From: Candidatus Faecaligallichristensenella faecipullorum
GTDB taxonomy: Bacteria > Bacillota > Clostridia > Christensenellales > Aristaeellaceae
Assembly: GCA_018716505.1 (NCBI GenBank)
Contig: DVJW01000167.1
Span: forward strand, 1 to 42,580
Direction of reading: 5' to 3'
DNA: 42,580 nucleotides
In this document: piece by piece, positions 207 through 42,580 of the stretch
How positions within the stretch are numbered: the stretch's first letter is position 1
How the letters are laid out: each line of letters begins with the position of its first letter
The notes under the pieces: model-generated
The model's input: only the letters and a program-made list of their open reading frames with translations
Database searches by the model: none
Told to the model about the DNA's origin: nothing
Program-made: the position numbers and the translations under genes

Positions 207-294
207 CTTTGACGGGCGACAAAGGAAAATGATGCAACTCAGGAAAATGAAAAATTCATTTTCCTGACAGCGTGTCGACTTTTTCGACACGCTG
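207..294 (+). repeat. Dispersed two-hairpin repeat, copy 1
   Basis: Three parts: a lead ending ATGATGCAACTC (207-240); hairpin C with 12-bp arms CAGGAAAATGAA (240-251) and TTCATTTTCCTG (255-266); hairpin D with 11-bp arms CAGCGTGTCGA (268-278) and TCGACACGCTG (284-294). C and D recur nearly unchanged at 25064-25129 and 27449-27515. The 34-nt lead recurs exactly, inverted, at 42458-42491. Hairpin D directly abuts the terminator stem at 295. Confidence 0.85.
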
Positions 295-335
295 CGGCGG
301 ATAAAGCGAAAATGCCTTATCCGCCGGGTTTTTGA
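295..335 (+). terminator. Intrinsic terminator (convergent end of the SGNH gene)
   Basis: Arms CGGCGGATAA (295-304) and TTATCCGCCG (317-326) are followed by GGTTTTTG on the plus strand. The minus-strand SGNH gene ends at 338, so the stem probably served that gene too. Read on the minus strand, the stem is followed at once by hairpin D of the repeat instead of a T-tract. Confidence 0.7.
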
Positions 336-337
336 TC

Positions 338-874
338 TCAGGCCAGCTCCGGAAAGATGGTCTCAAAGATTACCCGGGCGATGAGCTGGCTGCCCGCCGG
401 GGAGGCATGGCTGCCGTCCTCACAAAAGAGCTCCACCTCGGGATGCTCGCGGCGCTCCTTCTGCCAGACGTCGCCCACCGGCGCCACCGGTATATGCAGC
501 TCCCTGCCCAGGTCGAAATAAGCTTTGGACATGGCCGGTTGCGCGCCTTCATCGCCCCGGGCCGCCCAGGTTTGATACAACACCGCCCGGCTGCCAGCCT
601 GGCTTATCCAGCCGTGTATGGTGCGCGCGCCCTGGCGCATGGCCTCCAAATCCCCCATGGGATGGGCGGTATGCTGCAAAACCACCACGTCGTAGCCCCC
701 GAACAGGATATTGAAACGGGTCTGGGGCTCCACCGCGTGATAATCCAGGCCCATGCCGCCCTTGGCCAGCAGGGTTACCTCCACATCCATGCCGTGATCG
801 GCGCACATCTCCTGAAACCGGGCGGGCATGTCGTTTCGATAGGTATGACTGTTACCGATGAATAATACCCTCAT
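338..874 (-). CDS. SGNH/GDSL-family hydrolase
   Basis: 178-residue protein of the SGNH fold, whose members are esterases, deacetylases or lipases using a Ser-Asp-His triad. Block I is FIGNSH with nucleophile Ser9, and block V is DGSHASPAGS with Asp153 and His156. A KGG-M-GLDYH stretch (38-46) and the YDVVVLQ strand (61-67) fit the fold. No signal peptide is seen, so it is probably cytoplasmic. The ATG at 874 has an AGGAGGA site, and its ATGA overlaps the tadA stop, indicating translational coupling in a sulfatase-tadA-hydrolase operon. The frame stays open further upstream, but that part is antisense-like sequence inside tadA. A carbohydrate-esterase role is plausible next to the sulfatase; the substrate is unknown. 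Confidence 0.85.
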   Translation of the reverse strand: MRVLFIGNSHTYRNDMPARFQEMCADHGMDVEVTLLAKGGMGLDYHAVEPQTRFNILFGGYDVVVLQHTAHPMGDLEAMRQGARTIHGWISQAGSRAVLYQTWAARGDEGAQPAMSKAYFDLGRELHIPVAPVGDVWQKERREHPEVELFCEDGSHASPAGSQLIARVIFETIFPELA

Positions 875-1410
875 TTTAATCGTCCTCCTGTCCGTTCGAA
901 ATCCTTTTCGTCCCCCGAGCCAACGGTCTTGGGAGCGCTGCCCAACCGCCCTCGGAAAAATTCGCTCATGATTTGCGCGCATTCCGCTTCCAGCAGGCCG
1001 CCGTCGCAGGGGCAAAAGCCGGGCAGCGCCGGATCTTCGGGGATTCGGTATATGCTTCCGCAGCAGCCGGCCCGCTCGTCCCTTGCTCCGAAGATCACCC
1101 GGCTCAGGCGGGCCTGTTGGATGGCCCCGGCGCACATGGGGCAGGGCTCCAAAGTCACATACAGCGTGCAGCCCTCCAGCCGCCAATTGCCCAGCGCCTG
1201 GGCCGCGGCCCGGATGGCCAGCAGTTCCGCATGGCCCAAGGGGTCCTGGGAGGCCTCCCGAAGGTTATGGGCCAGGACCAGCGGGCGCTCATTCCGGACA
1301 ATCACCGCGCCCACCGGGACCTCGCCCATGCGGCCGGCCAGGCGGGCCTGATCCAGGGCCATGCGCATGAAGAGTTCATCCTGAACAGTGAAATTTGTCA
1401 ATAGGGACAT
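871..1410 (-). CDS. tadA: tRNA-specific adenosine deaminase TadA
   Basis: Deaminates adenosine 34 to inosine in the anticodon of tRNA-Arg(ACG), an essential wobble modification. The 179-residue protein has the zinc deaminase motifs: HAE (His60, catalytic Glu62) and PCPMC (Cys90, Cys93). The spacing and flanking sequence (DPLGHAELLAIR, LEPCPMCAGAI) are typical of TadA rather than cytidine deaminase. The C-terminal tail of about 20 residues looks unconserved. The ATG at 1410 lies 4 nt after the sulfatase stop, with a GGGAGG site inside the end of that gene. The stop overlaps the SGNH start. Co-transcription with a sulfatase is unusual for this housekeeping gene. Confidence 0.95.
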   Translation of the reverse strand: MSLLTNFTVQDELFMRMALDQARLAGRMGEVPVGAVIVRNERPLVLAHNLREASQDPLGHAELLAIRAAAQALGNWRLEGCTLYVTLEPCPMCAGAIQQARLSRVIFGARDERAGCCGSIYRIPEDPALPGFCPCDGGLLEAECAQIMSEFFRGRLGSAPKTVGSGDEKDFERTGGRLK

Positions 1411-1414
1411 GGGT

Positions 1415-2800
1415 TTATTGTCCCTCCCAATAGGCCCGGCTCATGGGATGGCCACTGTCCTCCCATTGGGCGCGGAATTCCTCGCGCAGCCTGAGCAGGC
1501 GCTCCACCTGGCCCTGATAGGCCGGGTCATCGATGAGATCGCGCGTTTCCCAGGGATCGTTTTGAAGGTCGAACAGCTGGCGGCGGTGGGCGAAGTTGCG
1601 GTATTCGATGAGCTTAAAGCGCTCGTCCTTTACCGAGCGGATCAGCTCCGCATAGCCGAAGTACAGCGCCCTGCGGGTGGTATGGTTGGGGTCGCGGAAC
1701 ATGGGCGCGAAACTCAGGCCCTCCACCGAATCCGGAATGGGCAGGTTTACCAGATCGCACAGGGTGGGGTAGATATCCATCAGATACACATAGCGGTTGA
1801 TCTTTTGGCCGGCAGGAATGCCCGGGCCGGCCATCAGCAAAGGCACCCGAATGCTGTGCTCATAGTGATTCTGTTTGCCCATCAGCCCATGTTGGCCCAC
1901 GGCCAGGCCGTTGTCCCCGGCCATGACGATGATGGTGTTATCCAGAAGATTCTTGCGCTTCAGCGCCTCCATGACCCGGCCGATCTGATGATCCAGATGG
2001 GTGATCATGGCGTAATATTCGGCGATATGGCGGCGGATCTCCCGTTCGTCCCGGGGATAGGCGGCCAGCACCTCGTCCCGAATGGTGTGTACCCCAAAGT
2101 CAAAATGGGTGGTCTGGAAATTGGGGGGCAGCTCAATATCCTCCGGGTTGTACATGCGCCTGAATTCCTCGGGCATGGTGCGGGGATCATGGGGCGCCAG
2201 ATAGGCCAGGTACAGGAAAAAAGGATCCTCTCCATCCAGATTATCCAGGGCCGAAATGGCGGTGTCGGTGAGCAGCTCGCTGGAATGGCGGCCTGGCTCG
2301 AATTTATCGCAATGCACCCTGAGGGGCGCGTTATCCTCAAAGAAATTGGCCACGAAGTTGATCTCGTTGTCATATTCCCCGGTGGGGTCATAGCGGTTCA
2401 GGGGCACGTTCCAGTGATCCCACATGCCGCCGAAAAAGATATTGTCCCCTTCCGAAAAGCTGCGGGCGAAGGCCGCGGGGCCGTTGTGCCACTTGCCGCA
2501 GCCAAAAGCCCGATAGCCGCCCCGGCGCAAAGTCTCGCCCAAGGTGATGTGCTCAGGCGGGATCGCTTCCCCCTGATTTTCCAGATGGAACAAGGTGCGG
2601 CCCGAATGGATCATGGCCCGGCTGGGCATGCACACCGCCCCGCTGGTGCCCGAGGGAATATGGGCCTGGGTAAAGGCGCAGCCCCGTGCGGCCAAGGCGT
2701 CCAGATTGGGGGTCTTGAGCCGTTCTGCGCCCAAGGAGTGGATCATATCAAAGCGCTGATCATCGGTCAAGATAAACAGGATGTTGGGGCGCTTGTCCAC
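1415..2800 (-). CDS. Cys-type sulfatase (alkaline phosphatase superfamily)
   Basis: Type I sulfatase of about 461 residues that hydrolyses sulfate esters of glycans or other substrates. The start is PNILFILTDDQ with the first metal-binding Asp pair. The signature CMPSR (Cys57 from the GTG start) is the cysteine that must be oxidised to formylglycine. A late MAGDNG stretch supplies further metal ligands. No signal peptide is visible, so it should act in the cytosol. The GTG at 2800 is preferred because AAGGAGGG lies 7 nt upstream; the in-frame ATG at 2824 has no ribosome site. No sulfatase-maturing enzyme is encoded in the window. First gene of the operon with tadA and the SGNH hydrolase. Confidence 0.9.
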   Translation of the reverse strand: MDKRPNILFILTDDQRFDMIHSLGAERLKTPNLDALAARGCAFTQAHIPSGTSGAVCMPSRAMIHSGRTLFHLENQGEAIPPEHITLGETLRRGGYRAFGCGKWHNGPAAFARSFSEGDNIFFGGMWDHWNVPLNRYDPTGEYDNEINFVANFFEDNAPLRVHCDKFEPGRHSSELLTDTAISALDNLDGEDPFFLYLAYLAPHDPRTMPEEFRRMYNPEDIELPPNFQTTHFDFGVHTIRDEVLAAYPRDEREIRRHIAEYYAMITHLDHQIGRVMEALKRKNLLDNTIIVMAGDNGLAVGQHGLMGKQNHYEHSIRVPLLMAGPGIPAGQKINRYVYLMDIYPTLCDLVNLPIPDSVEGLSFAPMFRDPNHTTRRALYFGYAELIRSVKDERFKLIEYRNFAHRRQLFDLQNDPWETRDLIDDPAYQGQVERLLRLREEFRAQWEDSGHPMSRAYWEGQ

Positions 2801-2839
2801 GGTGAGGCCCTCCTTCGAATGCAATGAATAATTTACTCT

Positions 2840-2869
2840 ATTATAACATCATCCGGGGTAAATTGGAAA
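2840..2869 (-). promoter_or_regulatory. Putative sigma-A promoter of sulfatase-tadA-SGNH operon
   Basis: Minus-strand TATAAT (2840-2845) with a weaker -35 TTTCCA (2864-2869) and an 18-bp spacer, about 40 bp upstream of the GTG start. Confidence 0.55.
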
Positions 2870-2974
2870 CTGTTTTGAAGGAAAAACAGGCGGGAGGCGT
2901 TGTTTCTGCCTTGATGGGGAAAATGGCGGGGCGCCTTTGCGGGCGGGGATCATGAATTTTCGTGAAAACAGAGT

Positions 2975-3358
2975 TTATTCTGCCGGTTCATTCAGCAGGG
3001 AGCGCACCCGCTCCACCGGAAAGCAGTCCGGTATATCCACAATTTCAAACAAATGTTCGGGCAGTTCCGCCTGATTGATAAGCGTAAGATATTCTGGAAC
3101 CGCCCGGCGGTCGATGATAATTTTGCCATGTCCCGCCCAATGCCGGTTGGTCTCACGCCTTTTCAGGCCGGAGATCCAATACGCCTCTCCGCTTTCCACA
3201 TCTCTGTAATTGGCAAAATTTCCGATACATTTTTGAAAGGCATGATCATTAAAGCAAATGGTCTTTTTGCTCTTTGAAGTTTTCACATAGCCAATCCATG
3301 CCGGGCCATCGTCCGAATGGCCCGTTTTCAGCTCGATATACATCAAGTCGTTGATCAT
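2975..3358 (-). CDS. Conserved small protein of unknown function
   Basis: 127 residues, soluble, with many aromatic and basic residues. Landmarks are MYIELKTGHSDDGPAWIGYV near the N-terminus, then YRDVESGEAYWISGLKR and HWAGHGKI. From memory, similar short proteins are widespread in bacteria and are sometimes mislabelled as 1-deoxyxylulose-5-phosphate synthase; nothing here supports that enzyme. The ATG at 3358 has AAGGAG 6 nt upstream. The frame stays open to 3493, but that extension has no ribosome site. It lies about 200 nt downstream of the cytidine deaminase gene in the same direction, across a spacer with two palindromes. Confidence 0.75.
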   Translation of the reverse strand: MINDLMYIELKTGHSDDGPAWIGYVKTSKSKKTICFNDHAFQKCIGNFANYRDVESGEAYWISGLKRRETNRHWAGHGKIIIDRRAVPEYLTLINQAELPEHLFEIVDIPDCFPVERVRSLLNEPAE

Positions 3359-3427
3359 TTGGTTCTCCTTGAAAAATCGGATGAAAGATGCTGACACCAT
3401 GGAGCTGGCGCGGCATAGCAATTGTGC

Positions 3428-3472
3428 AACGGCGCCGTTCGGTTGCCGTGGGCGTCCTTGCCAACGTTGGCA
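3428..3472. promoter_or_regulatory. Two palindromes in spacer before the small conserved gene
   Basis: The 202-nt gap 3359-3560 has no gene. It contains perfect palindromes AACGGCGCCGTT (3428-3439) and TGCCAACGTTGGCA (3459-3472). The second has the central CG and arm shape of LacI-family operators. Operator function is inferred from symmetry and position only. Confidence 0.35.
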
Positions 3473-3560
3473 TGCCGCTCGAGGATTTTCCATGGCCGGA
3501 ATGGACCGGGGAAAGGCCCATCGATCAAACCGGGCGAGGGGGAAGGCGGGACGGCGGGCG

Positions 3561-3953
3561 CTATATCCACCATTCCGGGGTCAATTGACCGAGGGTCATG
3601 ACCTTGCCCTGGTCATAGTCCAGCATGACTTCCACGCGCTTATATCCGGCGGGCATGAGCTGGGCCATCAGCTCGCGGCAGGCCCCGCATGGGGGGATGG
3701 CCTTGCCCTCCCAGTTGATGGCGATCACCCGTCGAATGGCGCTTTCGCCATGGGTAATCATGTTGAAAATGGCGTTTCGCTCGGCACAGATGCCCAAGGT
3801 GCAGGCGGCGTCTACGCAGACGCCCACATAAATTTTTCCGGAAGCGGACTCGATGGCGGCCGCGACGCCGCCGGATTCGATCATTTCGGAGACCTTCCTG
3901 GGATTCAAGACGGCCTTTGCCGAGTCGTACAGGGTTTTCCATATGGGTTCCAT
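3561..3953 (-). CDS. cdd: Cytidine deaminase-family zinc enzyme
   Basis: 130 residues with the short cytidine deaminase layout: a CAE motif (ICAERNAIF, zinc Cys and catalytic Glu) and PPCGACRELMAQ with two more zinc cysteines. Family members deaminate cytidine/deoxycytidine for pyrimidine salvage; blasticidin-S deaminases are close relatives, so the nucleoside substrate is not certain. The ATG at 3953 has AAGGAGG 8 nt upstream. It has its own consensus promoter (3992-4021) just after the rhaA terminator. Confidence 0.85.
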   Translation of the reverse strand: MEPIWKTLYDSAKAVLNPRKVSEMIESGGVAAAIESASGKIYVGVCVDAACTLGICAERNAIFNMITHGESAIRRVIAINWEGKAIPPCGACRELMAQLMPAGYKRVEVMLDYDQGKVMTLGQLTPEWWI

Positions 3954-3991
3954 GGGATTCGCCTCCTTGCGATGGCCATTTGGTTGGGGCC

Positions 3992-4021
3992 ATTGTAGCA
4001 TAACGCGAGCGGGAATGTCAA
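3992..4021 (-). promoter_or_regulatory. Strong sigma-A promoter of the deaminase gene
   Basis: Minus-strand -35 TTGACA (4016-4021), 18-bp spacer, -10 TACAAT (3992-3997), about 38 bp upstream of the ATG. Confidence 0.75.
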
Positions 4022-4025
4022 CGGA

Positions 4026-4060
4026 ACAAAAAGCCCGTCATTCTTTTTCGAATGACGGGC
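4026..4060 (-). terminator. Intrinsic terminator of rhaA
   Basis: Perfect 11-bp stem: plus-strand arms GCCCGTCATTC (4033-4043) and GAATGACGGGC (4050-4060). On the minus strand a TTTTT tract follows directly, 25 nt after the rhaA stop. Confidence 0.9.
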
Positions 4061-4084
4061 GGAAAAACGGCTTTTTAAGCAGCC

Positions 4085-5356
4085 TTAGCCGCGCTTGGAG
4101 AGCACATCCTTTTCGTACTCCTTAACCTTGCACAGCCACTCGTCGCCGGTGGGCACGCCCTGCTTTGCGCAATAGGCATCCCAGACCGCGGAGAAGGGCA
4201 AAGTCTTGTTTTCTTCCAACAGGGCCAGGCGGGTGGTGTAATCCATTTCGGATTCGGCCTTGCGGGCGGCGCAGATGGGATCCACGAAGGCGCGCAGCAG
4301 GGCCTTCTGGGCGTTGCGCATGCCGATGACCCAGGCGGCCACCCGGTTGATGGAGGCGTCGAAATAGTCCAGCGCGATGCACACACGGCCGGTGTAGTCG
4401 TTGCGCACGATCTCGTTCATGATGTTTTGCAGCTCGTCATCCCAGGTGATGACATGGTCGCTGTCCCAGCGCACGCCGCGGGACACATGCAGCAGGATGT
4501 TGTCCATATACTGCAGGCAGGCCGAGATCTTGGCGCTGATCATCTCGGTGGGATGGAAATGGCCGGCGTCCAGGGTGTAGGAGATGCCGCGGGAAAGGGC
4601 ATAGCCCATCATCAGCTCGTGGGAGCCCACGGTGTAGCTCTCCACGCCCAGGCCGAACAGCTTGCTCTCCAGGGAATCCAGCACCAGGCACTTATCGATC
4701 TTCTTGGCCGAGAAGATGGCGTCCAGGGCCTCGATCATGCGCTTGCGGGGGGCCACGGTGTCGGCCGGGATATCCTTGTATCCGTCGGGCATCCAGAAGT
4801 TGATGGCGCACTGTTCGCCCAGGCGCTTGGCGAATTCCTCGCCGATCTCGCGGCAGCGCTTGCCGTGCTCAATCCAGAAATCCTGAATTTTCTTGTCCGC
4901 GCTGGCCAGGGTGAAGCCATCCTCGGCATAGGGATGGGAGAAATAGGTGGGGTTAAAGTCCAGGCCCAGCTTGGCGTCCTTGGCCCAATCCACCCAGTTC
5001 ATGAACTGCTCGATGGTATAGGCGTCGCGGTCGATCTTTTTGCCGCCCAGCTCGGCATAGCTGGCGTGCAGGTTGACCTTTTTCTTGCCCGGGATCAGGC
5101 TGAGCGCCACGTTCAGATCCTGGCGGATCTCATCGCCGGTGCGGGCGCGGCCCGGATAGTTGCCGGTGGTGGCGATGCCGCCGGAGGCGCCGCCGTTGTC
5201 GCTGTCGGTGCCCACCACGTCGTCGGCCTGCCAGCAGTGCATGGAGACCGCCACCTTGGAAGCCTTTTCCATGGCCGCGTCGATGTCCACGCCCTTGGCG
5301 GCGTAGAGCTCCTTGGCATAATCATAGCCCTGGGCAATTTGTTTTTCAGTCGGCAT
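4085..5356 (-). CDS. rhaA: L-rhamnose isomerase
   Basis: Interconverts L-rhamnose and L-rhamnulose, the first cytoplasmic step of rhamnose catabolism. At 423 residues it has the usual family length. Recognisable blocks are SMHCWQADDV and TGNYPGRARTGDEI near the N-terminus, LNVALSLIPG, KLGLDFNPTYFSHPYA, the metal-site segment YTLDAGHFHPTEMI, and HVSRGVRWDSDHV. The ATG at 5356 follows GGAGGG at 8 nt. It is second in an operon with the GH2 gene 36 nt upstream. RhaB, RhaD and a transporter are not in the window. A strong terminator follows. Confidence 0.97.
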   Translation of the reverse strand: MPTEKQIAQGYDYAKELYAAKGVDIDAAMEKASKVAVSMHCWQADDVVGTDSDNGGASGGIATTGNYPGRARTGDEIRQDLNVALSLIPGKKKVNLHASYAELGGKKIDRDAYTIEQFMNWVDWAKDAKLGLDFNPTYFSHPYAEDGFTLASADKKIQDFWIEHGKRCREIGEEFAKRLGEQCAINFWMPDGYKDIPADTVAPRKRMIEALDAIFSAKKIDKCLVLDSLESKLFGLGVESYTVGSHELMMGYALSRGISYTLDAGHFHPTEMISAKISACLQYMDNILLHVSRGVRWDSDHVITWDDELQNIMNEIVRNDYTGRVCIALDYFDASINRVAAWVIGMRNAQKALLRAFVDPICAARKAESEMDYTTRLALLEENKTLPFSAVWDAYCAKQGVPTGDEWLCKVKEYEKDVLSKRG

Positions 5357-5392
5357 AATCGTTTCCCTCCATTAAAATAGAATTTTGAATCA

Positions 5393-7117: not shown

Positions 7118-7202
7118 GGAATTCATCCTCCTGACATGATGATGCTGTATTTTGACAGTTCAGGGCGCCAGGCCCTTTGATGCAAAATGGAATTTTGATT
7201 TC

Positions 7203-7231
7203 ATTATACTGTATTTTGTGCCGCAAGTAAA
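7203..7231 (-). promoter_or_regulatory. Promoter of GH2-rhaA operon with repeated CTGTATTTTG
   Basis: Minus-strand -35 TTTACT (7226-7231), 17-bp spacer, -10 TATAAT (7203-7208). The plus-strand decamer CTGTATTTTG occurs at 7209-7218, just upstream of the -10, and again at 7145-7154 in the leader, the latter as CTGT-6-ACAG. These could be operator half-sites. Confidence 0.6.
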
Positions 7232-7379
7232 TCACGAATTAACTTCTGCCAGGGGGAATTATACATTATCCGACCTGAGATTGGCCGTCCGGTCATAACT
7301 TTGTTTGAGCGGGAATGCCTTTGAAGACAGCGCGGAGCGCCCTGATGATTTTAGAAGGTTTAAGAAATGGAAACGCCCC

Positions 7380-7408: not shown

Positions 7409-7430
7409 AAATTCCATATGCTGGGGACTT

Positions 7431-11426: not shown

Positions 11427-11429
11427 AGC

Positions 11430-23168: not shown

Positions 23169-25064
23169 ATGGACAAACAAAAGGAAAAGAAATCGCGGCT
23201 TTGGCGCGGCTTTATGGCGCTTCTCGTTTTCATGCTATGGATGAATCAGGCCGCGTTGGGTGAGGGAACCCCTCAGCCCGCGCCGGGCAGCGCGCCCGAA
23301 GCGCAGGAGGTTGCGTTGGGCGAGGGCGGGGAAGCCCAGGCCACCCCGGTGCCCGCCGAAGCGTCCACCCCGGCGCCCGAGGTTACCCCCGAACCCACGC
23401 CCGAGGTCACCCCTGAGCCCACCCGGGTCATAGACCCGGAGGCTGATCAGCAGGCGCTCAAGGTTACCTCGGCCATCACCCCTGAGCAGATGGTCACCGC
23501 AGGCGAGGCCACGGTGCGTATCAACCTGGGCAATACCACAAACGCCATATTGGACGATGTGACCCTTTACGACGCGGAGGGCAACATCGTCTATGGGCCG
23601 GTTCAGATTCCGGCCGGGGAAAGCGAAGGCATGCGCAGTTACAGCGAGGATATTCAGGTAACCAAGGGCCAGCTTTCCGACGGGCAGATCGGTTATGCGG
23701 CGCGATTTGTGCTGGACAAGGGCACCGAAAGCGAGCGCACCATCGAAAAACAGATCCTGATTGAGGTCAAAAAGGTCAAGGCCAGCCCCCAAATAGAATT
23801 TTCCAGGGAAATCAGCAGCCTGTTTGTAACCGAGGGCAGTGAGGTCACCTTGACCTACCGCATTCGCAACACCGGCAACGTCAAATTGACCGATATCAAG
23901 GTTACCGACGAACTGGGCGGCGAGGTGGGTTCGTTGTCCAGCCTGGATGTGGGCAAAAAAAAGACTTTTACGCAAAAAGTGGTCATCCAGGAGGGGCAGA
24001 TCAGCCAGCCCAAGGTCAGCTATTCCTATGAGGGTGGCGAAAAGACCTATAGCGAAAAGTTGAAATCCAGCGAGATCGCGTTGGCCAGGGAAGAGCTTGT
24101 CCTTGAGCTCAGCGCCAGCCGCACCAGCGTTACCCCGGGCGAGACCATCAACCTGAACCTTCGGCTCATCAACAACGGCAATGTATCCTATAGCAAGCTG
24201 CGCATCAGCGACCCGGTTCTGGGCGATTTGGGCAGCTTGGCCAACGATCTCAAGGCCGGACAGGAATATGTGTTCAGCAAAGAGGTGCCCATCAAGAGCA
24301 GCACCAGCTTTCAGTTCCATGTGTCCGGCCGCTGTGCCACCAACAAAGAGATCAGCTACAAATCCAACGTTTGCACGGTTTCGGTGCTCAACGAGGATCA
24401 AAGCGGCATTCATTTGCGGCTTGAGGCAGAAACCACGAGCCAATCCATCAGCGGCCCTGGGCCGGTAACCTTTACATTGCACCTGTACAACGAGGGCGAT
24501 TTGGATATACGGGACGTCATGCTGTCCGAACAATCCAACGGCGACATCAAGCGCATGGCGGTTTTGGCCCCGGGCGAGACCCAGTTGGAGCAGACCTATC
24601 AATTGACCCAGAGCGGAACCTTTGTGTTTGTGGCCCAGGTTTCCGACGGTCAGGGTGGGAGCCTGACCGTGCTCTCCAATCCCATCGAGATTGAGGTGGG
24701 CAGCGGGGAGGCCGCGGTGGTGGCATCGCCCGACGCGGACGCGCCCCCGCCAACCCAGGCCGAGGGCAATGCCCTCAAACTGCCGGAAAATCCTGAGACT
24801 TTCCGCAACATGATGATTCTGGCCGGAGGCTTTCTGGCGATTATCCTCATTTTGGCCCTGAGCGCGGGCATGCGGGGCCGGAAAAAGCGCATGGCCCAGC
24901 GCAAGCGCGCGGCGGTTCAGCGCAAGGCAAGACCTCGCAAAGAGGAGGCGCGCCGGAGGCCGGCCCGGCACATGCCCCCGGTGGGCGTGGCGGACAAGCC
25001 GGACGAGATGGGCGATACCCAGCGCTTTCACATGGGCCAGCACCGGCCCACGGATATAAGCTGA
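23169..25064 (+). CDS. Membrane-anchored protein with CARDB/DUF11-like repeats
   Basis: 631 residues. An N-terminal basic stretch and hydrophobic segment (about 11-30) act as signal or anchor. A Pro/Thr/Glu-rich linker (PEVTPEPT repeats, about 40-95) leads to four beta-sandwich units of about 110 residues with RIRNTGNVKLTDIKVTD, RLINNGNVSYSKLRISD and LYNEGDLDIRDVMLSE. These are CARDB/DUF11-like adhesion or scaffold folds. A C-terminal transmembrane helix is followed by a strongly basic cytosolic tail. It is an outer-face protein of unknown partner. The ATG at 23169 follows AAGGAGGAG; the ATG at 23151 precedes that site. Confidence 0.85.
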   Translation: MDKQKEKKSRLWRGFMALLVFMLWMNQAALGEGTPQPAPGSAPEAQEVALGEGGEAQATPVPAEASTPAPEVTPEPTPEVTPEPTRVIDPEADQQALKVTSAITPEQMVTAGEATVRINLGNTTNAILDDVTLYDAEGNIVYGPVQIPAGESEGMRSYSEDIQVTKGQLSDGQIGYAARFVLDKGTESERTIEKQILIEVKKVKASPQIEFSREISSLFVTEGSEVTLTYRIRNTGNVKLTDIKVTDELGGEVGSLSSLDVGKKKTFTQKVVIQEGQISQPKVSYSYEGGEKTYSEKLKSSEIALAREELVLELSASRTSVTPGETINLNLRLINNGNVSYSKLRISDPVLGDLGSLANDLKAGQEYVFSKEVPIKSSTSFQFHVSGRCATNKEISYKSNVCTVSVLNEDQSGIHLRLEAETTSQSISGPGPVTFTLHLYNEGDLDIRDVMLSEQSNGDIKRMAVLAPGETQLEQTYQLTQSGTFVFVAQVSDGQGGSLTVLSNPIEIEVGSGEAAVVASPDADAPPPTQAEGNALKLPENPETFRNMMILAGGFLAIILILALSAGMRGRKKRMAQRKRAAVQRKARPRKEEARRRPARHMPPVGVADKPDEMGDTQRFHMGQHRPTDIS

Positions 25065-34357: not shown

Positions 34358-35426
34358 ATGGCATGGTATCAACAATTTTGGAACGGATACTATGGAGGCG
34401 TTACATATCCTGGCTATGGGTGGCCGGGCGTGGTGTATGCCACTCAAACCCGGAAAAGATGCGGAAGAAACTGCGTCATTGCCCCGCCCAGAAGGCCGGG
34501 GGGGATAGGTCCCACCGGCCCGACCGGTCCTATGGGAATGACGGGAAGACCGGGTCCCACTGGGCCCACCGGTCCCATGGGAATGACGGGAAGACCGGGC
34601 GCCACCGGGATCCACCGGGGCGACCGGGCCCACCGGACCCACCGGGGCAACCGGGCCCGCGGGGCATGACGGACTTACGGGCGCCACCGGAATCGCGGGC
34701 GAGACGGGGATGACGGGCGCCACCGGGATGACGGGAATCACGGGAATAGCGGGGGATATGGGGGCGACCGGGCCTGCCGGGGCGACCGGGCCTGCCGGGG
34801 CGACCGGTGCAACCGGGGCGACCGGGCCTGCCGGGGCGACCGGGCCTGCCGGGGCAACCGGGCCTGCCGGGGCGACCGGAGCGACCGGGGCAACCGGGCC
34901 TGCCGGGGCGACAGGTGCGACCGGAGCGACCGGGGCGACCGGAGCGACCGGAGCGACTGGGCCTGCCGGAGCGACCGGGCCTGCCGGGGCGACCGGAGCC
35001 ACTGGCCCGGCGGGAGAGGCGCCCGAGGATTCCTTTGCCTCTTTTGTCAGCTTTATGGGACAGTACGCCGATGGACAGCTGATTTCCATCTTTCCCAGTG
35101 TGGGCGATCCCACCGGGCAGATTGTGGCCAGCGATGAAACCCATGTGCAACTGGATCCAGGTACTTATCTGGTTTCCTACGGCGTGTCGGTGATCTTTCG
35201 AACGCCCAGCTATATGCAGGTTACCCCCTTCTATAATGGCGTGGCTCATTTGGAAACCGGCATATACTTCGCCACCAGCGCCAACGGATCTTCCGCCAGC
35301 GGCTCGGCCCATTTCATACTGGTGGCAGCCCAACAAACCCTGTTCAGCTTAACGTTTAACAGCTCCAGCACGGCCACCGACGGGGCGGTTACCCTGAGCT
35401 TTTTAAAATTGAATACCCCGGGATGA
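34358..35426 (+). pseudogene. Collagen-like (BclA-type) glycine repeat protein, frameshifted
   Basis: Two frames make one gene. The N-terminal part from ATG 34358 (MAWYQQFWNGYYGG, then RKRCGRNCVIAPPRRPGG and [13 protein letters not shown] repeats) runs out of frame after GRPGATG. Removing one G from the GGG at 34607-34609 restores Gly-X-Y reading ([10 protein letters not shown]...) through to 35426. The joined protein would have about 355 residues: short head, about 200 residues of Gly-X-Thr/Pro repeats, then a C-terminal beta-rich domain of about 130 residues like the trimerising BclA-C/C1q-TNF fold. Such proteins form hair-like filaments on spores or cells. The frameshift may be real, phase-variable or a sequencing error; if an error, this is an intact gene. 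Confidence 0.8.
34740..35007 (+). repeat. Gly-X-Y coding tandem repeats
   Basis: Near-identical 9- and 18-nt units of the type GGGGCGACCGGGCCTGCC encode [12 protein letters not shown] triplets. Such arrays readily change length by slippage or recombination. They also open a long antisense Pro-Ala-Gly frame, which is not a gene. Confidence 0.8.
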
Positions 35427-35509: not shown

Positions 35510-35538
35510 TTGTGCCCGGCGCGGTTCCAGTGTATAAT
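35510..35538 (+). promoter_or_regulatory. Promoter of the WbsX/GH99-like gene
   Basis: TTGTGC (35510-35515), 17-bp spacer, TATAAT (35533-35538). It leaves a leader of about 160 nt with no recognisable riboswitch. Confidence 0.6.
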
Positions 35539-35701
35539 GTCAGTATTCTGCGGAATCGTTTCAAGGGATGCTGTCTTTCCGGGCCGCCGGACGAACCGGT
35601 TTTGGATGAAGGCCCTGAAGGACGCTTGCGCAGAAGGGTTTTCAGGGAAACGCTCATGGCGAAAAGGAGTAAAAAAACCAGCGCTTTTGGAGGAAGAATG
35701 T

Positions 35702-36814: not shown

Positions 36815-36821
36815 ATACAAT

Positions 36822-36856
36822 GCGGGCGCTTCCAAATTTGGGGAGCGCCCGCTCCT
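36822..36856 (+). terminator. Terminator-like hairpin after the WbsX-like gene
   Basis: Arms GCGGGCGCT (36822-36830) and AGCGCCCGC (36844-36852), then TCCTTA. The weak T-tract may allow partial read-through. Confidence 0.6.
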
Positions 36857-36863
36857 TATGGGC

Positions 36864-36892
36864 TTGCAAAATGCTCGGGAATGGGGTATAGT
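36864..36892 (+). promoter_or_regulatory. Promoter of the URO-D-like gene
   Basis: TTGCAA (36864-36869), 17-bp spacer, TATAGT (36887-36892). Confidence 0.65.
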
Positions 36893-36928
36893 GTTAAAAC
36901 AAATTGTAGAATATGGGAGGGATTTCCC

Positions 36929-37945
36929 TTGACATCCAAAGAGCTCGTAATCAGCACGTTGGAGTTTCGAAATACCTCGCTGCGCGTTCCGCGCCAGCTT
37001 TGGACTTTGCCCTGGGCCAATGAGCATTGCCCGGAGATGATTCAAAAGCTTGATAAGGACTTCGAATGGGACTTCAGCGGGCCGGAAACGGTCTATGCCC
37101 AGACGCCCAAGACCTCGGGCGATCCCTACGCGGTGGGCGAATATGTGGACGAATGGGGATGTGTGTTCACCAATATCCAACGGGGCGTGATCGGCGAGGT
37201 CAAACACCCGCTGGTGACGGAGGAGGATTGGAGCGACGCGGACAAGGTGCATATTCCGGAGGAATATCTTTCCTTTGATGTGGATCAGGTCAACAGGAGC
37301 TGCGCGCAGCGGGCGGACAAATTCCTGATCGCCGGATGTTGCCCCCGGCCCTTTGAGCAGCTTCAGTTCATCCGGGGCACGGTGAATCTGTACATGGATC
37401 TCATGGATCCGCCCAAGGGATTTTGGGCCTTCCTGGAGAAGATGCACGACTATTATTGCCGGTTGCTCAAGAAATGGGCCCAGACCGATGTGGATGCCCT
37501 CAACATGATGGACGATTGGGGCTCGCAGAACAGCCTGCTCATCAATCCCAGGATATGGGAAAAGGTGTTTATGCCCATGTACCGGGATTATATCGACATT
37601 GCCCACGCCCACGGCAAGAAAATGTTCATGCACTCGGACGGCAACACCTTAAGCATCATTCCCCGGCTCATCGACCTGGGGCTGGATGCCTTGAACACCC
37701 AGATTTTCTGCATTGGGGTGGAAAAGCTGCGGCCGTTTAAGGGCAAGATCACCTTCTGGGGCGAGATCGACCGGCAAAACCTGATTCCCCACGCCAGCCT
37801 GGAGGAGATTGACCGGGCGGTTCAGAAGGTGTACGACACCCTCTGGCAGGACGGCGGCTGCATTGCCCAGTGCGAATTTGGCGCGGGCGGAAATCCGGAC
37901 AACGTGTACCGCATCTATCAGAAGTGGAGCGAGCTCAGGCCCTGA
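36929..37945 (+). CDS. Uroporphyrinogen decarboxylase-family protein (non-HemE type)
   Basis: About 338 residues of the URO-D superfamily barrel. This includes HemE and the methyltransferases that move methyl groups from corrinoid proteins. Seen: VDEWGCVFTNIQRGVIGEVKHPL, MMDDWGSQNSLLINPRIWEKVFMPMYRDYI, KMFMHSDGNT and FWGEIDRQNLIP. This style occurs in many gut Clostridia beside glycosidases; the substrate is unknown and HemE function is unlikely. The start is TTG 36929 with GGGAGGG 7 nt upstream, where the ATG at 36881 overlaps the promoter. The stop lies only 7 nt from the end of the convergent dus gene. Confidence 0.85.
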   Translation: MTSKELVISTLEFRNTSLRVPRQLWTLPWANEHCPEMIQKLDKDFEWDFSGPETVYAQTPKTSGDPYAVGEYVDEWGCVFTNIQRGVIGEVKHPLVTEEDWSDADKVHIPEEYLSFDVDQVNRSCAQRADKFLIAGCCPRPFEQLQFIRGTVNLYMDLMDPPKGFWAFLEKMHDYYCRLLKKWAQTDVDALNMMDDWGSQNSLLINPRIWEKVFMPMYRDYIDIAHAHGKKMFMHSDGNTLSIIPRLIDLGLDALNTQIFCIGVEKLRPFKGKITFWGEIDRQNLIPHASLEEIDRAVQKVYDTLWQDGGCIAQCEFGAGGNPDNVYRIYQKWSELRP

Positions 37946-37952
37946 GGCGCGT

Positions 37953-38912
37953 TTACCGGGGCGGGCAAAATTCCGGGGCCGGGGAAAGCGGTTTGTTTTC
38001 GAACAGCTCGTTCACCGCGCCTTGATAGTCGCTCAGGCGCGCGGCCTTTTTGATGCGCTTGGCCGGCTTGGCCGCGTCCTCAAAGGCGAAGATCATATAC
38101 AGCCAAAGTTCCTTCATCTTGCACAGCGCGTTGTGCTCGCCCGAAACCGTCTCAAGGTATCCTTCCAGGATTTGGTCGTGGAAGGCGCGCAGGGCGGCCC
38201 TCAAACGGCGTTCATCCAGATGGGGCGACAGCATGCCGGGCGCGGCCAGCAGGCCCCGGCCCAGCATCACCGAGTTCAGGCCCGGATGGGCACGCGCAAA
38301 ATCCCTGAGTTTTTGGGCGCTGAACAGGTCGCCGTTATAGCCCACCGGCGCGCGCAGGCTGCTCAGCGCGGCCTCAAAGCGGGACAGGTGGGGCGCGTTT
38401 TTGTAGTAGTCGGTTTGAAGCCGGGGATGGATGATGAGCTCATGGATGGGATAGCGGTTGAAAATTTCCATGAGACAGGGAAATTCATCGGTTTGGGACT
38501 TGCCCAGGCGGGTCTTGACCGAGATTTTGGCCCGGGTGGAAGCAAAGACCTGATCCAGAAAGGCGTCCAGCGCCTGGGGCTGGGCCAAGAAACCCGAGCC
38601 CTTGCCCTTGGCCACCACGGTCATGGAGGGACAGCCCAGATTCAGGTTGATTTCCTCATAGCCCATGGCATACAGATCTTCGGCTGCCCAGATAAAATCC
38701 TCGGCCCGGTTGGTCAGCAGCTGAGGCACCAGCGTGAGGCTCCGGTTATGGTCGGGCCGGATGTCCTCAAACTCCCGATGGCTGAATTTATGATGGGCGT
38801 TGGGGGAGAGGAAAGGGCTGAAATATTTATCCACCCCGCCGAAACAGGCGCTATGGGCGTTTCGGAAGACATAACCGGTTATGCCCTCCATGGGCGCGAA
38901 ATAATGATACAT
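37953..38912 (-). CDS. dus: tRNA-dihydrouridine synthase
   Basis: FMN enzyme that reduces uridine to dihydrouridine in tRNA. 319 residues: N-terminal YFAPMEGITGYVFRNAH, catalytic Cys94 in NLNLGCPSMTVVAKGKGSGF, SVKTRLG, ELIIHPRLQTDYYKN, VGYNGDLFS and VMLGRGLLAAPG. The C-terminal helical tRNA-binding region is present. The ATG at 38912 has GAGG about 6 nt upstream; a longer frame to 39104 would run antisense into the GH38 gene. Own promoter at 38949-38978. Confidence 0.95.
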   Translation of the reverse strand: MYHYFAPMEGITGYVFRNAHSACFGGVDKYFSPFLSPNAHHKFSHREFEDIRPDHNRSLTLVPQLLTNRAEDFIWAAEDLYAMGYEEINLNLGCPSMTVVAKGKGSGFLAQPQALDAFLDQVFASTRAKISVKTRLGKSQTDEFPCLMEIFNRYPIHELIIHPRLQTDYYKNAPHLSRFEAALSSLRAPVGYNGDLFSAQKLRDFARAHPGLNSVMLGRGLLAAPGMLSPHLDERRLRAALRAFHDQILEGYLETVSGEHNALCKMKELWLYMIFAFEDAAKPAKRIKKAARLSDYQGAVNELFENKPLSPAPEFCPPR

Positions 38913-38948
38913 AACAGGCCTCGCTTGAACAATGGGATTTTTGTATTC

Positions 38949-38978
38949 AGTATAAGCCATGAAGCGGGCGGGTTTCAA
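38949..38978 (-). promoter_or_regulatory. Promoter of dus
   Basis: Minus-strand TTGAAA (38973-38978), 18-bp spacer, TATACT (38949-38954). Confidence 0.65.
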
Positions 38979-39018
38979 GCCTTGCCCCATAAAATGAATG
39001 CGATTTGGAGGATGGATC

Positions 39019-41460
39019 ATGAGTTTACACATGATTGGAAACGCCCATCTGGACCCGGTCTGGCTATGGCAATGGCCCGAGGGATACAGCGAGATCAAGG
39101 CCACCTTTCTCTCGGCCCTGGACCGGTTGGACGAACATCCGGGCTTTATCTTTACCTGCGCCTGCGCCGCCTATTATGAATGGGTGGAGCAGAATGCGCC
39201 CGAGCTGTTTGAACGGGTGCGGGCGCGGGTCCGGGAGGGCCGCTGGCATGTGGTGGGCGGCATGTGGATTCAGCCCGACATGAACGTGCCCCAGGGGGAA
39301 TCCATTGCCCGCCATCTGCTGCGCAGCCAGCGCTATTTTCGGGAAAAATTCGGCATTACCGTCCGCACCGGCTACAACGTGGACACCTTTGGCCACAACG
39401 CCATGCTGCCCCAGATTCTTTTAAAGGCCGGCATGGACAGCTATGTCTGGATGCGGCCCGGTTTGCATGAAAACCCGGATATTCCCCAGGGCCCCATGAT
39501 CTGGCAGGGGTCGGACGGGGAAGGAATCATGGCCTTTCGGATTCACGGGGAGTACACCTGTTTTCAAGAGGTAGGCCGCAAGATTGAGCAGGAAATGCGC
39601 CTGGGCGATGAATTGGGCAAGAGCATGATGTGCTTCTACGGGGTGGGCAACCACGGCGGCGGACCCACCATTCAAAACCTGGCCGAGATCGACGCGTTCA
39701 AGAAGGAGAACGCCCGGGGAGACGAGGTGTGTTATTCGGCGCCGGATCTGTACTTCCGGGCGCTGGAGGGTGAAAAAAGCCGGCTTCCGGTATGGAAGGG
39801 CGAGTTGCAGCACCACGCCAGCGGATGTTACTCGGCGCATTCGGCCTCCAAGGCGCTGCACCGGCTGGCCGAGCACCGGCTCTTGCGCATGGAGGCGCTG
39901 GGGGTGCTGTCGCGGCTTTGCACCGGCCATGAACCCAGGCGGGATTTTGTGCGCCAGGCATGGGACAACCTGATGTTCAACGAATTTCATGACATCATGG
40001 GCGGATGCGCGCTGCCCGAGGCGCTGGAGGACGCCTGCACAGCCCTGAGCGAGAGCGTTTCCATCGCCGCCCGGGAGGAAAACGCGGCCATTCAGCGGAT
40101 TTCCTGGAGCATTGACACCATGAAAGAGCATCCCTCGGCCCGGCATGGGCGCGACTTCACCCAATGGGGCGTTTCGGACTTGGGCATTCCGGTGGTGGTC
40201 TTCAATCCCCACGGCTTTGAGGCCCGGGGCGAGGTCAAGCTGCGCAGAACCATCGGCCGGGTGACCGACGAAAGCGGCCATGAGGTGGCCTGCCAGAGGG
40301 TGCGCGCCACCCGCACCAACGGCGAGGACAAATGGGACGGGATTTTCACCGCCCAGGTGCCCGCGCTGGGTTGGCGGCTGTATTGGGTATGGAGAGAAGG
40401 GCAGGCGGCGGCCAAGGGCGGCGGACTGGAAATTTCGGAATACGCCATGGAAAACCAGAAGATCGCGGTGCGCTTCGACCCGGAGACCGGGGCCATGATT
40501 AGCCTTTTGGACAAGGCGTCGGGCCAGGAGGCGCTTTCCGGCCCGGCCCAGGCGCGGCTGATGGACGTGGAGCATTGCGACACCTGGGCGCACGGGGTGT
40601 TCCGCTTTGACCGGGAGGCCGGGGTGTTCGAAAAGCCCGAATTCCGGATTGTGGAGCGCGGGCCGGTGCGCGCGGTGCTCAGGATCACCACCCGCTTCGG
40701 CGGCTCCTTATTGCGGACCGATTACATCTTGTACGACGGGGCGGACCAGCTGGAGATGCAGGTCAAGCTGGATTTTCATGAGCCCCATCGAATGGTCAAG
40801 CTCTGCTTCCCGGTGGCCGGGCAGGATCACAAGGTTCATGCCGAAATTCCCTTCGGGGCGTTGGAGCGCAAGGGCGTGGGCGAGGAGGATCCCTGCCTGG
40901 GCTATGTATCCGTTGACAGTGCCGCAGGCGGATTGATGATGTTCAACGATGGACGGTACAGCTACAGCGTGGAGCAGGGCGAGCTGCGCATGACCATAGC
41001 GCATTCCGCCATCTTTGCCGACCATTATGGGCAGAAACAGCGGGATCAGGATTGTCTGTTCATGGATCAGGGGGAAATGGTCAGCCGCTATGCGCTTCGG
41101 CCCTTTGGCGGAAGCTGGCGGGATCAGCGGCCCGAGCGCCGGGCCGCGCTGCTCAACCGGTCGTTGCCCCATGTGGTGGAGACCTACCACCCGGGCGAAC
41201 TGCCCGAGCGCATGGAGGGCATCCGCCTCAGCGAAAGCGGGGTTATGATGGAGGCCATCAAGCGCTCCGAGGACGGTCAGGGCTATATCCTGCGCCTGTC
41301 CGAGCGGGACGGCAAGGCGGTTGCGGTCAAGGTGTGCCTGAGCGCCATGAAGCGCGAATTTGAGGCCGGACTTGAGGCCTTTGAGATCAAGACGCTCTAT
41401 ATTCCGGATCAGGCCGGTCTGCCGGTGAAGAACGTGCTCATCACCGAATGGGAGGCATAA
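39019..41460 (+). CDS. Alpha-mannosidase, GH38
   Basis: 813-residue retaining alpha-mannosidase that releases mannose from N-glycan- or mannan-type oligosaccharides. The zinc site begins with HLDPVW (His10, Asp12). The nucleophile/zinc ligand is Asp122 in GYNVDTFGHNAMLPQIL, and FNEFHDIMGG supplies a later ligand. A helical middle domain and C-terminal beta-sandwich domains follow (PVVVFNPHGFEARG, VSVDSAAGGLMMFNDGRYSY, YALRPFGGSW, ETYHPGELPE). No signal peptide, so it acts on imported sugars; manA could feed the product onward after phosphorylation. The ATG at 39019 has GGAGG 7 nt upstream. Confidence 0.93.
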   Translation: MSLHMIGNAHLDPVWLWQWPEGYSEIKATFLSALDRLDEHPGFIFTCACAAYYEWVEQNAPELFERVRARVREGRWHVVGGMWIQPDMNVPQGESIARHLLRSQRYFREKFGITVRTGYNVDTFGHNAMLPQILLKAGMDSYVWMRPGLHENPDIPQGPMIWQGSDGEGIMAFRIHGEYTCFQEVGRKIEQEMRLGDELGKSMMCFYGVGNHGGGPTIQNLAEIDAFKKENARGDEVCYSAPDLYFRALEGEKSRLPVWKGELQHHASGCYSAHSASKALHRLAEHRLLRMEALGVLSRLCTGHEPRRDFVRQAWDNLMFNEFHDIMGGCALPEALEDACTALSESVSIAAREENAAIQRISWSIDTMKEHPSARHGRDFTQWGVSDLGIPVVVFNPHGFEARGEVKLRRTIGRVTDESGHEVACQRVRATRTNGEDKWDGIFTAQVPALGWRLYWVWREGQAAAKGGGLEISEYAMENQKIAVRFDPETGAMISLLDKASGQEALSGPAQARLMDVEHCDTWAHGVFRFDREAGVFEKPEFRIVERGPVRAVLRITTRFGGSLLRTDYILYDGADQLEMQVKLDFHEPHRMVKLCFPVAGQDHKVHAEIPFGALERKGVGEEDPCLGYVSVDSAAGGLMMFNDGRYSYSVEQGELRMTIAHSAIFADHYGQKQRDQDCLFMDQGEMVSRYALRPFGGSWRDQRPERRAALLNRSLPHVVETYHPGELPERMEGIRLSESGVMMEAIKRSEDGQGYILRLSERDGKAVAVKVCLSAMKREFEAGLEAFEIKTLYIPDQAGLPVKNVLITEWEA

Positions 41461-41506
41461 AAAAGACGCCCCCGGCATGGTTTCCGTTCGCCATGCCGGG
41501 GCGTTC
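41461..41506 (-). terminator. Bidirectional terminator, GH38 / XRE gene
   Basis: Stem with outer arms CGCCCC/GGGGCG and inner CGGCATGG/CCATGCCG. On the minus strand it is followed by TCTTTTTT, just after the XRE stop at 41529; on the plus strand it closes the GH38 gene. Confidence 0.8.
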
Positions 41507-41528
41507 AACCCTGGAGGGAGGCGATGAA

Positions 41529-41771
41529 CTAATTCGGGTCATCGCCCCACAGGATATAATCGGTGGAAAGCTGATACAAACAGGCCAAAAAGCACAGCTC
41601 GGCCACGCTCATTTTGCGCGCGCCCTGTTCTATCAGGTTGATGCGCGGCTCTGGAATCTTCAAAATCAAAGAGACCTGAGCAGCGGTCAGGCCGGTGGCC
41701 AGGCGGGCATCGCGCAATCGAAAGCCAATTTCGCGCAGGTTTAGCGCCACATCATGAGGGATGACACACAC
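41529..41771 (-). CDS. Small XRE-family helix-turn-helix regulator
   Basis: About 80 residues. The HTH_3-like domain is IGFRLRDARLATGLTAAQVSLILKI, then PEPRINLIEQGARKMSVAELCFLACLYQLSTDYILWGDD; this length and C-terminal DYIL..DD ending are usual for stand-alone XRE proteins. The start is uncertain: GTG 41771 touches the AGGAG site and no in-frame ATG follows nearby. Divergent from the second XRE gene across an AT-rich spacer. Confidence 0.82.
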   Translation of the reverse strand: MCVIPHDVALNLREIGFRLRDARLATGLTAAQVSLILKIPEPRINLIEQGARKMSVAELCFLACLYQLSTDYILWGDDPN

Positions 41772-41889
41772 CTCCTGTCTACTGTGGTAACTATTAGAAG
41801 TATAGTAGTTCGTAATATGAAGAACGGTTATATTATAGCATGATCTCGGCTACAATGCTAGTATGCCCATTGAGCTAGGAGATCGAAAT
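41772..41889. promoter_or_regulatory. AT-rich divergent control region between two XRE genes
   Basis: 118 bp much richer in A+T than its surroundings. -10-like TATAAT and TATACT occur on the minus strand and TACAAT on the plus strand; no -35 is convincing. The interrupted inverted repeat ACTAT/ATAGT may be an operator for one of the XRE proteins. Confidence 0.4.
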
Positions 41890-42219
41890 ATGGATAAATG
41901 CAACCTGGATACGGTCGGAGGAAGGGTAACCTACTTAAGAAAGCTAAAGGGTTGGACACAGGAGGAGTTGGCCGAAGCGGCGGATGTGTCGGTTCAGTTT
42001 ATATCTTCCGTGGAGCAGGGACGCACCAACGTCAGGAGCGACTATATTGTGATGTTAGCCAGGGTGTTGGAGGTCAGCGTGGATTTTATCTTGGAGGGGA
42101 AGACCACGCCGCGGGACGCGGAGGCGCTGGTTTCGATGATCGGCGGTCTCAGCGGGCCGGCTTACATTCACCTGAGAAACATCGTCGTCGAATATTGCAA
42201 ATCCCACGGCCAGAACTAA
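41890..42219 (+). CDS. XRE-family regulator with C-terminal extension
   Basis: 109 residues. The HTH is GRVTYLRKLKGWTQEELAEA, then ADVSVQFISSVEQGRTNVRSDYIVMLARVLEVSVDFIL; a helical tail of about 35 residues (ALVSMIGGLSGPAYIHLRNIVVEYCKSH) follows. It is probably a repressor of its own or the divergent gene. The ATG at 41890 has AGGAG 8 nt upstream; an earlier ATG at 41863 has none. Confidence 0.88.
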   Translation: MDKCNLDTVGGRVTYLRKLKGWTQEELAEAADVSVQFISSVEQGRTNVRSDYIVMLARVLEVSVDFILEGKTTPRDAEALVSMIGGLSGPAYIHLRNIVVEYCKSHGQN

Positions 42220-42436
42220 GGGAAGGAGGCCCGCGGGACCGTCGCGGGGAGGATGGCGTTATTTGGCGCTGAGCGGGCGATGTCAGGAGGCGAAAATCCT
42301 TTGGGTTCTAAGTGGAAGAGGCTTGACTTCTAAATGACTTTTACATTACAGTTTAAAAGAAGCCGAGTCTTTTTTTCGTGACCCATTTTTTGGGGGTAAA
42401 GGGAAAGAAAAGATAAAAAATCATGCGCCCATGAGT
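42220..42436. other. Non-coding tail with possible terminator
   Basis: No gene seen. An imperfect stem bounded by GGCTT (42320-42324) and AAGCC (42360-42364) is followed by a seven-T run (42370-42376) and may end the XRE transcript. The rest is AT-rich sequence without recognised motifs. Confidence 0.4.
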
Positions 42437-42580
42437 CGAAAAAATTTTCATTTTTTCGAGTTGCATCATTTTCCTTTGTCGCCCGTCAAAGTCTGCGCCC
42501 CGGCCTCAGCTCGGCTGGGCCGGGGTTTCGGTGTGCGAATTCATTCGCACACCTTCAGGTTGGCGTTGCCAACCCTTCGA
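42437..42580 (-). repeat. Hairpin repeat array, copy 4 (inverted, diverged)
   Basis: The exact 34-nt reverse complement of 207-240 lies at 42458-42491. The adjoining hairpin is CGAAAAAA/TTTTTTCG (42437-42458) in place of hairpin C, and D is missing. Beyond it lie CCCCGGCC/GGCCGGGG (42498-42525), GGTGTGCGAAT/ATTCGCACACC (42530-42553) and GGTTGGC/GCCAACC (42558-42574). It lies downstream of a plus-strand gene, the same relation to its upstream gene as in the other copies. Confidence 0.75.

Follow-up and report, generated by a model that had tools for sequence, protein, structure and literature searches.

Hairpin-built intergenic repeats of a Christensenellales genome, very probably IS1182-dependent mobile elements that duplicate terminator hairpins

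We analysed a family of hairpin-built intergenic repeats found in a 42,580-nucleotide stretch of Candidatus Faecaligallichristensenella faecipullorum DNA (assembly GCA_018716505.1, contig DVJW01000167.1, positions 1 to 42,580 of the forward strand; hereafter the window) and in the remainder of the genome. These repeats are very probably short, non-autonomous elements resembling miniature inverted-repeat transposable elements (MITEs), which are mobilised by DDE transposases of the IS1182 family of insertion sequences (ISs) and whose landing duplicates a terminator hairpin. A sequence-only reading of the window had described a mosaic family of structured repeats located downstream of genes. That description is partly supported, and it missed the transposable nature of the repeats, i.e. 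their inverted-repeat ends and the targeting and duplication of terminator hairpins.

The genome to which the window belongs (2.93 Mb assembly, 84% complete; G000) was searched with patterns allowing up to three mismatches, each pattern being accompanied by its reversed version as a control. The prediction that the window copies imply many more in the genome was borne out: the C hairpin was found at 42 places (41 forward and 41 reverse matches) and the D hairpin at 39, the junction TTCATTTTNNNGAGTTGCATCATTTT gave 84 matches and the hairpin module H (GGGG..GCCCCTTCATGCATCCCC) gave 91, with no match to any of the reversed controls. Once duplicates were removed, 78 left junctions and 92 right modules remained, D being kept at 69 left ends and a recognisable terminal motif at 89 right ends. 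Many copies lie at contig ends, and the repeat therefore appears to break the assembly. Read from D, a compact copy is organised as follows: D, C, GTTGC, E (with a conserved GGCC strand), F (closed by GGA/TCC), TCCTCG, G, CTGCGGATT, H, CATCCCC and the right end. Two types can be recognised: D reads CAGCGTGTCGAAAAAGTCGACACGCTG in type 1 and CAGGGTGTTGACAAAGTCAACACCCT in type 2, the right end after CATCCCC reads GGTTTTTTGACAGYCTG and GGTTTGTCAATGSTCTG, respectively, and the left and right ends form imperfect inverted repeats (CAGCGTGTCGAAAAA / CAGRCTGTCAAAAAA in type 1, CAGGGTGTTGACAAA / CAGACCATTGACAAA in type 2). Seven copies are hybrids that combine type 1 and type 2 ends (L003, L004, L023, L025, L026, L036 and L142), and at three loci (L051, L132 and L153) the right end is directly followed by the D-type hairpin of another copy. 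Complete copies, as called by a script that demanded at least 200 bp on both sides, number 36; their sizes are 220–224 bp (23 copies) or 286–422 bp (13 copies, the longer ones with extra hairpins), which is too short for a transposase gene in every case. No viral contig matched the type 2 left end or the H module.

Exact direct duplications of at least 16 bp (16–37 bp) flank 21 of the 36 complete copies, and seven more duplications (19–41 bp) were recovered as split pairs, each spread over two contigs. At L029, for example, AGGGATTCCGCCCAAAGAAGCGGAATCCCT is present immediately 5' of the element and again immediately 3' of it, where it is followed by TTTTTTT; at L001 the repeat is placed 4 nt inside the border. 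Two complete copies (L135 and L020) carry a direct hairpin copy with mismatches, and two others (L030 and L146) carry a hairpin copy whose loop is inverted. The two hairpin copies also differ by an inverted loop at L361, in the related genome G203. These loop inversions suggest that the hairpins were extruded and processed, and are a possible trace of cruciform processing.

The border hairpins look like terminators. With a hairpin defined as a stem of at least 6 bp starting no more than 3 nt from the boundary, one was present at 68 of 88 right ends (one of the 89 was too short for the test) and at 51 of 69 left ends. By comparison, 40 dinucleotide shuffles of the flanks gave means of 5.5 (right) and 3.6 (left), with maxima of 15 and 8, and control positions 60 nt further out gave 8/88 and 5/69. 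A T-run (at least four T in 8 nt) follows 45 of the 68 right hairpins and a single one of the 51 left hairpins, against a background of 7/88; thus, the far hairpin copy keeps the T-run and the D-adjacent copy loses it. A partial case was seen at the left end of L126 (contig C136), where only the 5' half of the terminator hairpin is duplicated (AGGGGCCT).

Of the four window copies, 27294-27515 alone is complete, and the earlier reading overlooked the terminator hairpin present on either side of it (27267-27293 and 27516-27542, 96% identical). The copy at 1-294 belongs to one of the seven split pairs. As to what that reading did report, the C and D hairpins with their lead were all found again (228-294, 25064-25129 and 27449-27515), as were the inverted lead with a different C-type hairpin (42437-42470), the 34 exact bases common to 207-240 and 42458-42491, and the stems GTCACC/GGTGAC around 115 and 27429. 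Its statement that no named family matches also stood: the window contains no match to an Rfam family at gathering score, and relaxed searches with two copies gave sub-threshold matches only. The features of the window are the following:

27294..27515, minus strand: compact type 1 element, complete, with its D end at 27515 and its right terminal repeat ending at 27294
27516..27542, minus strand: host terminator hairpin, copy nearer the gene (left target-site duplication), 96% identical to 27267-27293
27267..27293, minus strand: far copy of that terminator hairpin (right target-site duplication)
27489..27515, minus strand: D hairpin, made of the left terminal repeat and its inverse
27460..27488, minus strand: C hairpin
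27324..27460, minus strand: E-F-G-H multi-hairpin interior, scoring 146.7 bits with covariance model R1 (this copy is itself in the model)
1..294, minus strand: element in its long form, truncated at the contig start; D at 268-294, C at 239-267
295..326, minus strand: terminator hairpin bordering the copy at 1-294 on its left; the same 32 bp recur at the right end of an element on contig C44 (L061; split pair L010/L061)
25064..25129, minus strand: fragment reduced to D, C and lead, directly adjoining the stop of a convergent gene
25130..25163, minus strand: terminator-like hairpin abutting D of the fragment 25064-25129
42437..42580, plus strand: type 2 element that lacks D and is truncated at the contig end, its C hairpin at 42437-42460

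What is published on the IS1182 family provides a framework for these borders. According to the available text of Wan et al. 2017 (PMC5678879), newly inserted copies of IS1272, a member of this family, replaced stem-loops without duplication; the same source presents a hypothetical pathway b (figure 13), in which the element is joined to the 5' feet of the two stem-loops of a cruciform and the whole stem-loop is thereby duplicated. Furi et al. 2016 (PMC4923244) describe insertion at terminators in either orientation, part of the hairpin being deleted. The repeats do not show the insertion mode of IS1272, in which the stem-loop is replaced: the whole hairpin is duplicated. Their borders are those predicted by pathway b as presented in that text, namely a duplication length set by the hairpin, an intact hairpin on both sides and insertion in both orientations. 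By such a route, the transposase would recognise an extruded cruciform (or hairpin) at the target, and both 3' ends of the element would be joined to the 5' foot of the hairpin, one per strand; we infer that this joining is carried out by the transposase itself. Gap repair would then copy the whole hairpin, so that the length of the duplication would equal that of the hairpin. The D-adjacent hairpin would lose the T-run and the far copy would retain it; termination would therefore be preserved and the element would join the 3' end of the gene. Hairpins within the elements would be targets themselves, which could explain nesting and mosaics.

The proposed partner was sought through the PF01609, PF05598 and IS1182 (NF033551) families. 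IS1182-family transposases were found in 94 of 200 genomes of the family to which the organism belongs (24 above the curated cut-off), and the corresponding ISs end in CAGACCGTTGACAAAC or CAGCCTGTCAAAAAAGG, which are close to the type 2 and type 1 right ends of the repeats. Indeed, the type 2 right end CAGACCATTGACAAACC matches CAGACCGTTGACAAACC of the IS1182 locus L206 at 16 of 17 positions, and the right end CAGCCTGTCAAAAAA of an element of genome G030 (L237) is identical, over 15/15 positions, to those of the IS1182 loci L213 and L214 (type 1 of the window's own genome reads CAGRCTGTCAAAAAA). In some IS1182 copies, e.g. L206, the left end is followed by its inverse, like D in the repeats, and a decayed IS1182 copy in G030 ends with GGGGCTTTGTTGACAGGCTG, followed by a hairpin. 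A duplicated hairpin flanks six of the 30 IS1182 loci examined (L207, 31 bp; L208, 22 bp; L210, 25 bp; L213, 25 bp; L214, about 20 bp; L234, 32 bp), the reading frame being broken in L208 and L234, and the single placeable end carries a hairpin in L205, L206, L209 and L212. The locus L220 was set aside, as its 18-bp direct repeat is not a hairpin. The repeats thus have what is expected of IS1182 MITEs: right ends closely matching those of an IS1182 IS, no room for a transposase gene, and a hairpin duplication like that of the partner (seen at those 6/30 loci only).

Two other candidate partners were rejected. The ISAs1-family IS of the genome itself has its transposase, and its ends differ (CACGGAAATCAATTTT). 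IS1634 elements, which have long variable repeats, were the other candidate; across the four genomes searched, PF01609 matched nothing but the ISAs1 element, whose score fell far short of the IS1634 cut-off. One ISAs1-family IS (L184, contig C49 of G000) is adjacent to CAGACTTTGTCAATGTTC and to the palindrome ACAGGCCGGCCTGT, which may mark the end of a further element that targets hairpins.

The context of the complete copies agrees with an intergenic family located at gene ends, as had been proposed: 15 lie between convergent genes, 14 between tandem genes in the sense orientation and five in the antisense orientation, two are unclassified, and none of the 34 classified copies lies between divergent genes. 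This position downstream of genes is accounted for by terminators being the insertion target. The left flanks (n = 87) follow a gene in the sense orientation in 63 cases and in the antisense orientation in 20 (four undecided), these calls resting on a codon score trained on the window. The orientation relative to the preceding gene had been described as constant; this holds for the four window copies and only in part for the others, the antisense copies among tandem genes and left flanks showing that orientation is not fixed.

Several observations weigh against an origin by IS1182-driven transposition. The genome itself (84% complete) gave no match to NF033551 or PF05598; we do not, however, regard a transposase in the same genome as a requirement for MITE status. 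IS1182 hits are not clearly commoner in genomes that contain the interior module (14/25) than overall (94/200), no hairpin duplication was found at 24 of the 30 IS1182 loci (some cut by contig ends, some with other ends), and ten further IS1182 stretches yielded only a second view of L210. The left ends of the elements and of the IS1182 ISs are similar in layout without being identical. Among the 36 complete copies, four have short duplications only (6–10 bp; L003, L046, L071 and L126), the first three lacking a hairpin and having duplications of 6–8 bp, and seven have none that could be found (L025, L026, L038, L051, L132, L136 and L142). Comparison of the loci of the genome with 71 H-module loci revealed no empty site, the best neighbouring DNA being 67–78% identical. 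Finally, the counts given above allow for a possible bias to the sense orientation (14 versus 5 tandem copies, 63 versus 20 left flanks).

Related repeats with duplicated borders occur in other genomes. A first comparison with 59 other genomes identified relatives in three (G030 and G015, of the same family, and G057, of another family), and module H was present in 25 of 200 genomes and 10 of 50 genera of the family (none with the reversed control). The covariance model R1, which describes E-H and draws on copies of G000, G030, G015, G057, G203 and others, matched 15 of 297 genomes of the order at E <=1e-9, representing 11 genera and five families. As many as 23 of the 297 matched at E <=0.001, and only the 15 were counted: the stricter cut-off was chosen because the E-values are only approximate and H also gives matches on the strand opposite to it: among 55 matches, 18 were weak, and each of these lay opposite a strong one. 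In the near-complete genome G025 (main contig 3.97 Mb), border duplications of 16–39 bp were found at nine of 13 copies, which are all its H places. Among the copies looked at elsewhere, they were found at 4/5 in G203 (one inverted, one with mismatches), 3/12 in G030, 1/1 in G011, 1/1 in G092, 1/2 in G069 and 0/1 in G128; the L351 match and the second L367 match, which are not border duplications, were left out. Among the matches listed, the records containing module H are labelled as uncultured Clostridia or Clostridiales, with several goat, sheep and deer gut samples and one 'Lapin' set. Very diverged members of the multi-hairpin architecture were also noticed in other families of the order (L373 in G273, L379 in G417).

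The interior of the elements is highly structured, and its stems are kept while the sequence varies, which supports the earlier reading in that it saw selection on structure. When 40 copies from four genera were aligned with MAFFT, the E, F, G and H helices were paired in 96.5% of 1618 cells, and none of the slid versions of the alignment paired above 57%. Changes on both sides of a pair affect 18 of 41 pairs (157 cells versus 50.1 by shuffling), and none of 500 shuffles matched the observed paired cells, both-side changes or covariation score. The measure of further pair types showed no excess, 497 of the 500 shuffles being as high. Both-side changes were still more widespread (29/35 pairs; 212 cells versus 50.7 by shuffling) among 36 copies from many genera and several families, in an alignment that was fitted to the structure by the model and hence leans towards it; here, too, none of 500 shuffles was as high on paired cells, both-side changes or covariation score. 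In each of the 40 copies, C can form a stem of 12 bp or more if a single mismatch is tolerated, its arms varying between and within genera. Few of the paired cells are G-U (4 of about 1561 in the 40-copy set, A1, and 26 of about 1109 in the 36-copy set, A4), a pattern that suits perfect DNA palindromes or swaps of whole hairpins more readily than slow covariation of an RNA; the strands conserved at the junctions would equally suit RNA. The conserved multi-hairpin interior is probably a structural part that serves mobility or tolerance. It is conceivable, if rather doubtful, that C-E-F-G-H constitutes a functional nucleic-acid machine conserved in at least five families of the order, riding in trans on differing IS1182 ends (type 1, type 2 and hybrids) as a folded-DNA transposition signal or as an RNA of the 3' untranslated region. 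It would then be a structured selfish element defined by its fold and not by a gene, whose hairpin-duplicating landing leaves a working terminator.

Covarying stems and junctions conserved over five families, together with the presence of at least one gene end next to each of the 34 classified complete copies, would suit non-mobile RNA or DNA elements kept 3' of genes for regulation (3'-end processing, mRNA stability or termination). Such elements would not account for terminal inverted repeats, for a target hairpin duplicated at both borders, for some 90 module copies in one genome, some of them nested or antisense, or for the scarcity of G-U pairs (4/~1561 in A1, 26/~1109 in A4), and we regard this explanation as very unlikely. 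The RNA-like look of the interior would also be compatible with a retroelement-like insertion after terminators via the RNA of the 3' untranslated region, in the manner of group IIC introns, which insert beside terminators. This is extremely improbable in view of the duplication of a whole hairpin, the inverted-repeat ends and the two insertion orientations; besides, no Rfam intron family reached its gathering score in the window or appeared in the relaxed searches of two copies.

REP/BIME of enterobacteria are hairpin-built mosaic repeats that lie at gene 3' ends, depend on a Y1 transposase and are not known to show target duplication. The present repeats resemble them in being hairpin-built, mosaic, intergenic and numerous, so that movement by a Y1 (RAYT) transposase acting on single-stranded hairpins might be considered. 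Target duplication is not known from Y1 transposition, and the inverted-repeat ends, the long duplications and the existence of IS1182 elements with closely similar ends make this explanation very unlikely indeed. The duplicated hairpins could, alternatively, be tandem terminators or a by-product of recombination between copies rather than target duplications: seven of the 36 complete copies have no detected duplication, and seven copies have hybrid type 1/type 2 ends. However, the hairpin that is duplicated is a different one at each locus and directly adjoins both ends of the element, and the same borders are seen at IS1182 elements of other genera; we therefore give this explanation next to no weight. 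Transposition of MITE-like elements by IS1182-family transposases is the reading that we retain.

The closest known systems are IS1272 and TnSha1 of Staphylococcus, to judge from the available text of the two papers describing them (PMC5678879, PMC4923244). Like the repeats, they belong with the IS1182 family and target inverted repeats and terminator hairpins without sequence specificity; TnSha1 was found in both orientations at one terminator, and IS1272 has 16-bp inverted-repeat ends. Unlike the repeats, which duplicate the whole stem-loop, they replace or partly delete it, with no duplication. Short non-autonomous derivatives of the IS1182 family comparable to the repeats exist in Methanosarcina acetivorans as partners of ISMac2; these MITEs are listed at 160 bp (direct repeat 4) and 169 bp (direct repeat 0), and a hairpin-sized duplication is not reported in the text available (PMC3852290). 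The same is true of ISPse1 of Paracoccus, an IS1182-family member whose direct repeat is listed as 4 (available text of PMC3281130). The BOX, RUP and SPRITE repeats of Streptococcus pneumoniae are likewise intergenic, insert into one another and include terminator-like members, whereas neither terminator hairpin duplication nor IS1182-type ends are reported for them in the accessible part of the source (PMC10969869). No published report of whole-hairpin duplication was found in the small part of the relevant papers that was covered. Reportedly, ISfinder gives direct repeats of up to about 60 bp for IS1182; if those long repeats were hairpins, part of the present finding would already be known.

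The repeats provide natural evidence, from several genera and from IS1182 elements themselves, that the length of a transposase-made target duplication can be dictated by a DNA hairpin (16–41 bp) and not by a fixed stagger, which makes cruciform targeting directly testable. They also suggest a low-harm way for a parasite to spread: as the terminator is copied on insertion, termination should survive, and every insertion adds a conserved multi-hairpin structure to the 3' end of a host transcript.

Two reading frames of the window contain repeats of their own. A collagen-like frame at 34358-35426 has repeats with a 9-nt period, and frame 1 is broken inside them; the break could be due to a frameshift, to phase variation or to an assembly error. 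On the minus strand, 25194-26030 encodes a LysM-like protein (a label given from reading the sequence) whose TPSTPSLPSTP linker accounts for the 9-nt DNA repeat at 25525-25641.

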